DNA of 64,000 nt from Promethearchaeota archaeon Loki_b31 (GTDB taxonomy: Archaea > Asgardarchaeota > Lokiarchaeia > Sigyniarchaeales > SOKP01), in NCBI GenBank assembly GCA_005222975.1, contig NJBI01000006.1, positions 38,698 to 102,697 of the forward strand, given 5' to 3'. Both the position numbers and the translations under genes were made by a program. This document shows, in pieces, positions 51,633 through 56,738 of the stretch (the stretch's first letter is position 1; each line of letters opens with the position of its first letter). The notes below the pieces were generated by a model. The model did not search any database and was not told the DNA's origin. It worked only from the letters and a program-made list of their open reading frames with translations.

Positions 51633-52913
51633 TTGTTTTATATGGCTAAAACTGACTATTTTATAGGAGAAGCACTTCTAGGTTCTGGGAGCTCAGTCGC
51701 TCATATCGATCTAATCATCGGCTCCAAAGATGGACCCGTGGGAATATCTTTTGCTAATGCCCTTAGTAACCCTTCAATAGGCCATGGAGGGCTTCTAGCG
51801 TGTATTAGACCGAATTTATTAACTAAACCTGTTAGTTTGGTAATTCCAAAAGTAACTGTCTCAAAAATGGAAGAAGCTAATAAAATTTTTGGGCCAGCTC
51901 AAGCCGCTGTTGCTAAAGCAATAGCGGATGCTGTCGAAGAAAACCTCATTCCGATGAATAAAATTGATGAATGGCTTTTAATTGTGAGCGTTTTTATTCA
52001 TCCTGAAGCAAAAGATTATAGGAAAATATATCAGTATAATTATGGTGCTACAAAATTAGCTATTCAAAGGGCTTTAAAAAATTATCCTCCAATTGAGAAA
52101 ATTTTCTACGATAAGGATCGCGCGAAACATCCTGTTGCTGGATTAAGAGTTCCAAGACTTTGGAGACCGCCCTATATACAAGTTGCTTTAGATGCGCCAA
52201 GTTTGGAACATCAATTGAAAGTTGTTAAGCAACTCCCAAAAAGCGATAGAATCATTTTAGAAATTGGAACCCCGTTTCTTAAGAAATATGGAGTAGAGGC
52301 AATTGAAAAGATACGGGAGATTGCTCCGGAGAAATTCATTGTCGCTGATTTAAAAACGCTTGACGTCGGCAAATTAGAGGTGGATTTTGCTTTTGATGCT
52401 ACTGCCGACGCCGTAGTAGCAAGTGGTTTGGCATCTCCCAAATCAATTGATAAGTTTCTATTAGAAGCAAGACGTCTTGGAATTTATGGGTTCGTTGACA
52501 CAATGGAAGTGGTTGATCCCATCGAGAAATTAAAGCAATTGAAACAAATACCCGATGTTGTCATTCTTCATAGAGCGATAGATGTAGAAAGCGCCATAGA
52601 AGGTTCAGATGACGCCCAAAAACAAAAATGGCAATTCGTTCCTAAAATAAAAGAACTGTATGCTGATAAAAAATTAGCATCTGGAAAAGATCGCGTGTTA
52701 GTAGCAGTTGCTGGAGGAATCGAACCATCTACAGCTGAATATGCTCTAAAAATGAAAGCAGATATCTTAATAGTCGGTAGATATATTACTTCCAGCAAAG
52801 ATATTAAGAACTCCATGCGTCAATTCATCAACATCTTGCCGGGATACTCTGATATAGACCTAAAGCGGATACATGTAGACGACGACGATATTAACAGCCT
52901 AAAATCTAAATAA
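51633..52913 (+). CDS. fae-hps: Bifunctional formaldehyde-activating enzyme/3-hexulose-6-phosphate synthase
   Basis: N-terminal Fae (IGEALLGSGSSVAHIDLIIGSKDGPVG.FANALSNPSIGH) joined to a C-terminal HPS barrel (DRIILEIGTPFLKKYGVEAI, VADLKTLDVGKLEVDFAFDATAD, VAGGIEPSTAEYALKMKADILIVGRYIT). Confidence 0.96.
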   Translation: MFYMAKTDYFIGEALLGSGSSVAHIDLIIGSKDGPVGISFANALSNPSIGHGGLLACIRPNLLTKPVSLVIPKVTVSKMEEANKIFGPAQAAVAKAIADAVEENLIPMNKIDEWLLIVSVFIHPEAKDYRKIYQYNYGATKLAIQRALKNYPPIEKIFYDKDRAKHPVAGLRVPRLWRPPYIQVALDAPSLEHQLKVVKQLPKSDRIILEIGTPFLKKYGVEAIEKIREIAPEKFIVADLKTLDVGKLEVDFAFDATADAVVASGLASPKSIDKFLLEARRLGIYGFVDTMEVVDPIEKLKQLKQIPDVVILHRAIDVESAIEGSDDAQKQKWQFVPKIKELYADKKLASGKDRVLVAVAGGIEPSTAEYALKMKADILIVGRYITSSKDIKNSMRQFINILPGYSDIDLKRIHVDDDDINSLKSK

Positions 52914-55119: not shown

Positions 55120-55280
55120 ATTAGCATAACCAAGTTTTATCACCTAAGATGTAAAATATTTCTAAGAGAGCTTGAATAATAACTATTCTCCTTTTATATC
55201 CCCATCAAACTGTAAGACATTCATTTTTATTGAAGTTTTTTAAATTACTAATTATTCTTCTTTTCTAAAAAATTGAAAAC

Positions 55281-55298
55281 TGTTCCCATATGGGAACA
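55281..55298. promoter_or_regulatory. Perfect 18-bp palindrome, candidate operator upstream of multi-winged-helix gene
   Basis: TGTTCCCATATGGGAACA immediately followed by AT-rich TTTATATATTAA (candidate TATA box). Confidence 0.65.
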
Positions 55299-55358
55299 TT
55301 TATATATTAAAACTTCTATTACTTTATTGAAAAAAAAATAAAATTTGGGTTTCAATAC

Positions 55359-56738
55359 ATGCCAATAGAAGAAGATCGTATTCGAGAATTACCAAAAAGC
55401 CTTCAAGGGATAGAGATTATACTAACCTATTTAAACGAGAGAAATAAAGATTCTTTAAGCATAAGGAACATAAGTGAAAACACAGGACTTTCGATGCGAG
55501 TTACTAAAAACATTTTATTGCAATTAGAGAAATTTAATCAAATAGAAAGAGTCGTAGAAAAAAATAACATTCTTCCAAAATGGAGAATAACTAAGTTTGG
55601 AAAAAAAGTTCTTAAAGAAGCGGAAGGAATACAAAAAAAAATTGAATTTCCTAGTAGAGAAGATGAATTATTAACTAATATATTAATTCCAGATAACATT
55701 GAAGCTCTTAAGGCAAAAATTAAAGAAAACGTCGAAAATAATATTTCAAAATTAAAATCAATGCAAAATGACTTAAGTAAAACATTAGGAGCAGTATTGA
55801 ATTTAAATAATCCCATTTTTGAAGACTTGATGGGTGTTATCATTAACCGTATCAAATTTATTAGACAACAAATTACAAATTTTCCTTCAGATCCGTTAGC
55901 AGTTTATCAATTAAAGAAGATAGAAGAAAAGCAGAAAAAGGTTCCAAAAGAGGAGATGAAAACTCTGTTGGCAGAAATTTTCTTCATTGACTCTATTATG
56001 CACAATGAGTTGAATCGTATAAATGATTACAATATGAAATTATCTCAATTCTTAGAGAGAGAGAAAGCATCTAAAGGCTATTCAACAGCAAAAGATTTAC
56101 GTGAAGAAATCAGGATTTTTCTAAATTTAATTCGTAAAAGAGAGTCCATTAAAATTAATTCTCATGTCCTATCTCCTGAAAATTTAAGACTAGTTTCTAA
56201 AAATAAAATCACTCCAGAAATTTTAAATACCATAATCGAAAGTCCTATCACTGAAGAAGAACAAACTGAAGAAATTAAAATTATTGTAATAAGCCTTATA
56301 ACAAAATTAAATAAAGGAGAGAAACATATCGAAGGTTATACTGTTGATATAACTGAAAATATACCATTATATACTTTTTATCAATTAATACTAGACGAAA
56401 ATCCAAATTTTGATATTACTATCGAACAACTGGAGGAAATTATAAATTCGCTTGCGGAGGAAGGGTATCTGCCAGGTATTAAAATAATTCAAGAAGATGA
56501 GGATCACTACCTTAAACTAGTTCAGTTTAAAGTTAGAGATATTTCTAAAAATGAGTTAGAATTAATTACCAATGCGTTAAGATTTCAGAGCTTTGCATTA
56601 GCAGATATGGTTGGAGCAACGGGATGGAGCACTATTCAAGTGGTAAAGATTTTGAATCATCTTACTGAATTAGGAATTTTAAAATATTTAAAAAATCACC
56701 TCCATGGTGATCGTTGGTATATTGTATCTGAAAACTAA
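55359..56738 (+). CDS. Multi-winged-helix regulator-like protein
   Basis: N-terminal KDSLSIRNISENTGLSMRVTKNILLQLEKFNQIERV and C-terminal FALADMVGATGWSTIQVVKILNHLTELGILKYLKNHLHGDRWYIV HTH segments. Confidence 0.75.
   Translation: MPIEEDRIRELPKSLQGIEIILTYLNERNKDSLSIRNISENTGLSMRVTKNILLQLEKFNQIERVVEKNNILPKWRITKFGKKVLKEAEGIQKKIEFPSREDELLTNILIPDNIEALKAKIKENVENNISKLKSMQNDLSKTLGAVLNLNNPIFEDLMGVIINRIKFIRQQITNFPSDPLAVYQLKKIEEKQKKVPKEEMKTLLAEIFFIDSIMHNELNRINDYNMKLSQFLEREKASKGYSTAKDLREEIRIFLNLIRKRESIKINSHVLSPENLRLVSKNKITPEILNTIIESPITEEEQTEEIKIIVISLITKLNKGEKHIEGYTVDITENIPLYTFYQLILDENPNFDITIEQLEEIINSLAEEGYLPGIKIIQEDEDHYLKLVQFKVRDISKNELELITNALRFQSFALADMVGATGWSTIQVVKILNHLTELGILKYLKNHLHGDRWYIVSEN

Follow-up and report, generated by a model that had tools for sequence, protein, structure and literature searches.

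The window analyzed here is a stretch of 64,000 nucleotides from the genome of the Lokiarchaeon Loki_b31. It contains a palindromic promoter element, the gene directly behind it, and a series of further genes read in the same direction:

55281..55298, no strand assigned: predicted operator, the 18-bp perfect palindrome TGTTCCCATATGGGAACA, kept in 14 of 15 orthologous units
55299..55310, plus strand: TATA box TTTATATATTAA, kept in the aligned promoters, with no gap to the operator
55359..56738, plus strand: predicted autoregulator of 459 amino acids, with an N-terminal winged helix, a helical region and tandem Vps22-type winged helices
55395..55589, plus strand: MarR/TrmB-like winged helix (residues 13-77), the predicted DNA-binding domain
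56349..56732, plus strand: Vps22/EAP30-like tandem winged-helix domain (residues 331-458)
56772..57629, plus strand: SPFH/Band 7 protein, whose gene follows directly at nearly all orthologous loci
57874-59406 and 59415-60608, plus strand: two leucine-rich-repeat (LRR) genes, found at the corresponding position in the closest relative
61553..62911, plus strand: TPR gene, which the closest relative has as well

The palindrome, its promoter and the operon

Positions 55280-55310 read CTGTTCCCATATGGGAACATTTATATATTAA, and the ATG of the downstream reading frame lies at 55359. All nine base pairs of the palindrome match, and the symmetry stops before 55280/55299. The first-pass annotation, which had reported a perfect 18-bp palindrome abutting a TATA-like box ahead of this reading frame, was accurate in both respects. 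Within the promoter, the right arm of the palindrome sits where the BRE belongs, and the left arm lies 10-18 bp ahead of the TATA box; a dyad-symmetric site thus touches the core promoter directly, as expected of autoregulatory operators that overlap BRE and TATA box.

The window (31% GC) contains five perfect palindromes of at least 18 bp, where a first-order Markov model predicts 1.2, and palindromy alone is therefore weak evidence of function. Among these five, only TGTTCCCATATGGGAACA has 8 G+C in its 18 positions (0.075 expected), and it is the single match to this sequence in the window at up to three mismatches, versus 0.03 expected. Since symmetry by itself carried little weight, conservation had to decide.

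The SPFH/LRR/TPR cluster named by the first-pass annotation exists as a local arrangement, but the conserved core comprises only the winged-helix and SPFH genes. The closest relative (genome G010, contig C77) has the same LRR-LRR-TPR genes and, behind them, genes for a UBA5-like E1, a JAMM protein, a ubiquitin-like protein (UBL) and a UFC1-like protein; the window reaches to the end of its contig, which stops before the place where this putative conjugation module would lie. At loci that lack the module (L047:9336-12863, L050:8421-10589, L049:5184-7148), the gene behind the SPFH gene varies and encodes beta-helix, TPR or membrane proteins, and these varied proteins share a C-terminal zinc-ribbon-like CxxC pattern. 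The arrangement is that of a constant winged-helix/SPFH pair with a changing cargo gene. Elsewhere in the window, positions 51633-52913 carry a gene in which a formaldehyde-activating enzyme is fused to a member of the OMPdecase/HUMPS family (hexulose-phosphate synthase-like).

Conservation and specificity of the site

Orthologues of the 459-amino-acid protein are patchily distributed: 15 full-length members in three families, the window protein included, were found in 14 of 196 genomes, with 37-100% identity. The palindrome and its TATA box head the transcription unit in 14 of these 15 cases, which are not independent of each other because the orthologues are related. Absence of the motif from orthologous promoters had been named beforehand as an outcome that would speak against an operator, and the opposite was observed. 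When eleven non-redundant promoters were aligned at the site, the palindrome held 1.18 bits of information per column and the TATA region 0.68, as compared with 0.23 and 0.21 in the two flanks, so that the site is conserved beyond the drift of its surroundings.

The operator of the closest relative (G010, contig C77) is identical to the window palindrome, and that of G053 is the variant TGTTCCCATATGGAAACA. In G078 and G074, whose proteins have just 38-39% identity, the site is nevertheless present and reads TGTTTCCATATGGAAACA (TGTTTCC...GGAAACA); both arms are altered together in a symmetric change. The operators of G013, G057, G043, G005, G038 and the second G010 copy (contig C49) are more degenerate; among the degenerate sites, five of nine positions still pair in G043 and six of nine in G066. 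The start of the contig falls inside the site in G063. The operons of G034 and G066 begin with other genes, and it is these that the site precedes, 1,222 and 434 bp upstream of the winged-helix gene and again with a TATA box. Two sites fill a divergent promoter in G057, the second and weaker copy facing the other operon of the conjugation module. Only in G019 was the orthologous protein found without a recognizable operator site.

Homologues that adjoin an SPFH gene but do not possess the N-terminal winged helix occur in G028, G125 and G189, and the nearest sequence to the operator at these loci is 5-6 mismatches away. Conversely, G053, G078, G074 and G066 possess winged helix and site, but no conjugation module at the locus. 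Hence, the site follows the winged helix and not the SPFH or conjugation genes; a DNA-binding-type domain is encoded in the very operon whose promoter carries the site, and the two occur together.

The genome-wide counts come from pattern searches. In its own 3.5-Mb genome, TGTTCCCATATGGGAACA has one exact match, the site reported here, and the four other sites found when three mismatches are allowed all fall within long reading frames. When operator and TATA box were searched together in 196 genomes at up to one mismatch, only carriers of the gene were found, and in these only the promoter in question; two mismatches yielded three matches in other genomes, all in reading frames. The 18-mer alone, with one mismatch, corresponds in other genomes to the part of the ribonucleotide reductase reading frame that encodes VSIWEQ, which also accounts for most near matches elsewhere. 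The frame that gave rise to one such one-mismatch match (L002:1-1825) has an apparent intein-like insertion. No regulon was found, either in the own genome (up to three mismatches) or in the relatives (one to two mismatches), the other near matches being coding. The first-pass annotation had proposed a search at zero to three mismatches, in which occurrence at random genomic positions would have discredited the operator; the search turned up no such scatter. A general BRE motif was considered and rejected, since other TATA-like sites of the window are not preceded by a sequence resembling TGTTCCCATATGGGAACA; likewise, GGRAACA is absent before them, a rough control as the true start sites are not known.

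The winged-helix/Vps22-like protein and the linked, putative conjugation genes

In the protein encoded at 55359-56738, a MarR/TrmB-like winged helix is fused to a Vps22-like domain of the ESCRT-II type. The first-pass annotation had named helix-turn-helix segments in this gene but missed the fusion. An AlphaFold model (pLDDT 82) displays a winged helix at residues 13-77, a helical region at 114-262, and C-terminal winged helices at 337-389 and 397-454. The N-terminal fold superimposes on MepR structures with an rmsd of 1.6 Å over 76 columns, and Pfam TrmB matches 10 of the 15 members (best 6.4e-7); for the protein of the window there are only weak HTH-model matches. Fold and profile match together place the N-terminus among TrmB/MarR-type regulators. 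The ligand-binding C-terminal domain of TrmB is missing, and we do not class the protein as TrmB because its C-terminal half is Vps22-like.

The best Foldseek matches of the model are to SNF8/Vps22 of ESCRT-II (E values 1.4e-4 and 2.2e-4, TM 0.46 by target), which alone reach E <0.001; MarR-type regulators, including MepR-DNA complexes, follow lower down. A sequence profile run against the PDB had SNF8 as its sole match, by itself not significant. Alignment with Asgard Vps22 by hhalign covers residues 330-457 with 99% probability (E 3e-18). Pfam EAP30 is matched by 3 of the 15 members (best 3e-4), and the G125 homologue scores above its cut-off. The tandem winged helices are accordingly homologous to Vps22. 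Of 228 Asgard genomes, 94 contain matches to the profile of the protein; most of these are proteins of 240-390 amino acids aligned to the C-terminal part, and those in G053 and G115 are canonical Vps22 (Pfam EAP30 2.8e-14 and 5.3e-20). The canonical Vps22 gene of G053 adjoins a gene for a Vps4-like ATPase; the window-type gene lies elsewhere, not in the ESCRT cluster with Vps4 and ESCRT-III. A viral origin was rejected, as a search of viral contigs with the protein profile yielded no relative.

Mean pairwise identity is 67% in the N-terminal winged helix, the most conserved part of the protein, 81% in its recognition helix, and 42% in the helical region. The recognition helix begins with SMR in all orthologues except that of G019, where it begins with STR. 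That this residue variant is linked to the missing site of G019 is suggestive only, being a single case.

In most relatives, the winged-helix/SPFH pair is neighbored by genes for a zinc-ribbon protein, a UBA5-like E1, a JAMM peptidase, a UBL and an E2; examples near Vps22-like and SPFH genes are L038:3468-7477, L125:1037-6758, L126:2323-8912 and L130:5554-10287. Against the PDB, the E1 matches UBA5 best (3e-56), followed by MoeB (4e-32). The best matches of the E2 are all UFC1 (1.5e-4), with Pfam UFC1 just under its cut-off; its structure model is poor (pLDDT 50). The modifier candidate is a UBL of 88 amino acids that ends in VG and does not match UFM1 significantly in sequence. UFC1-like genes are found in 18 of 228 Asgard genomes. 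Judged from these sequence matches, a UBA5-type E1 and a UFC1-type E2 occur together in what we regard as a putative UFM1-type conjugation module of Asgard archaea, which the first-pass annotation did not notice. According to a 2023 survey, UFM1 and UFC1 occur only in eukaryotes (PMC10183829). We found no description of a UFM1-type Asgard module in a literature search that was thin on subscription journals and preprints.

In G013 (L040:3247-4857), the module's zinc-ribbon protein carries a fused TIR domain at its N terminus (Pfam TIR_2 3.3e-14), and the winged-helix protein of this genome is prolonged at its C terminus by about 150 extra residues; both features hint at a role in conflict or immunity. 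We rejected an assignment as a defense system, for which the PADLOC hits were limited to the E1 fold in general, weak matches to winged helices, and the TIR domain in one relative.

Likely autoregulation and comparison with known systems

Archaeal winged-helix autoregulators of the Lrs14 and MDR1 type bind sites that overlap BRE and TATA box. Reading the palindrome as an operator is well supported, and we consider it likely that the operon starting at 55359 controls itself, because the conserved site adjoins the gene of a protein with a DNA-binding domain. That the protein would bind its own operator is suggested by the specificity for a single site, by co-occurrence and by conservation. Taken as a whole, the element is in our judgment rather likely a dedicated, BRE-overlapping operator that is bound by the operon's own product, with a probably repressive outcome. 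The product would attach to the palindrome as a dimer via its N-terminal winged helix, keep TFB and TBP off the promoter, and hold the operon low, i.e., the winged-helix and SPFH genes, the LRR and TPR genes where present, and in relatives also the UFM1-type conjugation genes. Release might occur when the Vps22-like C-terminal half engages a partner (SPFH protein, membrane or a modified protein); this is speculation, and such a signal is suggested by the Vps22-like half and the constant SPFH neighbor. Autoregulation of an SPFH/LRR/TPR cluster, as proposed by the first-pass annotation, is still the best reading, given one promoter site per locus that tracks the winged helix, but the name of the cluster applies only locally.

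The same autoregulator might instead activate its operon by recruiting TFB and TBP from a position next to the BRE. Activator sites usually leave the BRE free. Here no gap separates palindrome and TATA box, and with the right arm covering the BRE, TFB and the regulator would compete; a bound dimer would exclude TFB, which makes repression the likelier direction. Activation, to which we assign a clearly smaller chance, draws on the location of the site on the upstream side of the TATA box: OxsR, a TrmB-family regulator, was associated with activation where its motif preceded BRE/TATA and with repression where the motif followed (PMC9426492).

It is rather improbable that the operator serves another factor encoded elsewhere and that the winged-helix/Vps22-like protein is merely an ESCRT-II-like component or an E3-like adaptor. 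Its C-terminal half is clearly ESCRT-II-like, winged helices of ESCRT-II serve protein contacts (PMC10936438), and homologues without the N-terminal winged helix occupy similar loci; yet the promoter site is present solely where the winged-helix/Vps22-like gene is, is missing where the N-terminal winged helix is missing, and this winged helix is the best-conserved part of the protein. The conserved GGAAACA-TTTATA half does resemble an A-rich BRE next to a TATA box, so that the right arm could be a strong BRE with incidental mirror symmetry; the likewise conserved left arm and the missing GGRAACA at the other TATA-like sites of the window make a pure core-promoter element very improbable. Least probable of all, to a degree that we nearly discount it, is an RNA hairpin or a terminator of the upstream gene. 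The strand can fold into a 7-bp stem, but several of the sites are imperfect palindromes, the element precedes the TATA box and is hence outside the predicted transcript, and no Rfam or tRNA match was found; the upstream gene is not conserved, which disfavors a terminator, and is divergent in G078, G074, G053, G010 (C77) and G057.

Very little is known about gene regulation in Asgard archaea, and the palindrome is a cis element with comparative support that is small enough for in vitro testing. Of greatest interest are the architecture of the regulator, which would likely tie transcription to ESCRT-II-type machinery, and the system surrounding it. As the loci of relatives encode UBA5- and UFC1-like enzymes and a modifier, the system flagged by the operator bears on the origins of both UFMylation and the link between ubiquitin and ESCRT. 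We tentatively entertain the idea, more doubtful than not, that Lokiarchaeota made a transcription regulator out of an ESCRT-II subunit: by gaining a DNA-binding winged helix and a dedicated operator, a Vps22-like protein may have coupled the state of a membrane/SPFH and UFM1-type tagging system directly to the transcription of the genes that encode it.

With the Lrs14/MDR1-type regulators and OxsR (PMC9426492), the Loki_b31 system shares a palindromic BRE/TATA site, a MarR/TrmB-like winged helix and a regulator gene within the controlled operon, with the binding predicted in our case. It differs from them in that a Vps22-like half replaces the ligand-binding domain, and in having one dedicated promoter site with no regulon found. 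SPFH-ESCRT links in archaea are already known (PMC10936438). Asgard ESCRT-II Vps22 (cog.002769, PMC10936438) has the same tandem winged helices (the 99% profile match) and a preceding helical region, whereas the window-type gene lies outside the ESCRT cluster, is patchily distributed, and encodes an extra N-terminal winged helix of the DNA-binding type. Finally, the putative Asgard module resembles eukaryotic UFM1 conjugation (UBA5, UFC1, UFM1) in its E1 and E2 matches and in a candidate modifier that ends in VG; it differs in the lack of a significant match between its UBL and UFM1, in having a JAMM-type peptidase gene, and in its linkage to SPFH and Vps22-like genes.
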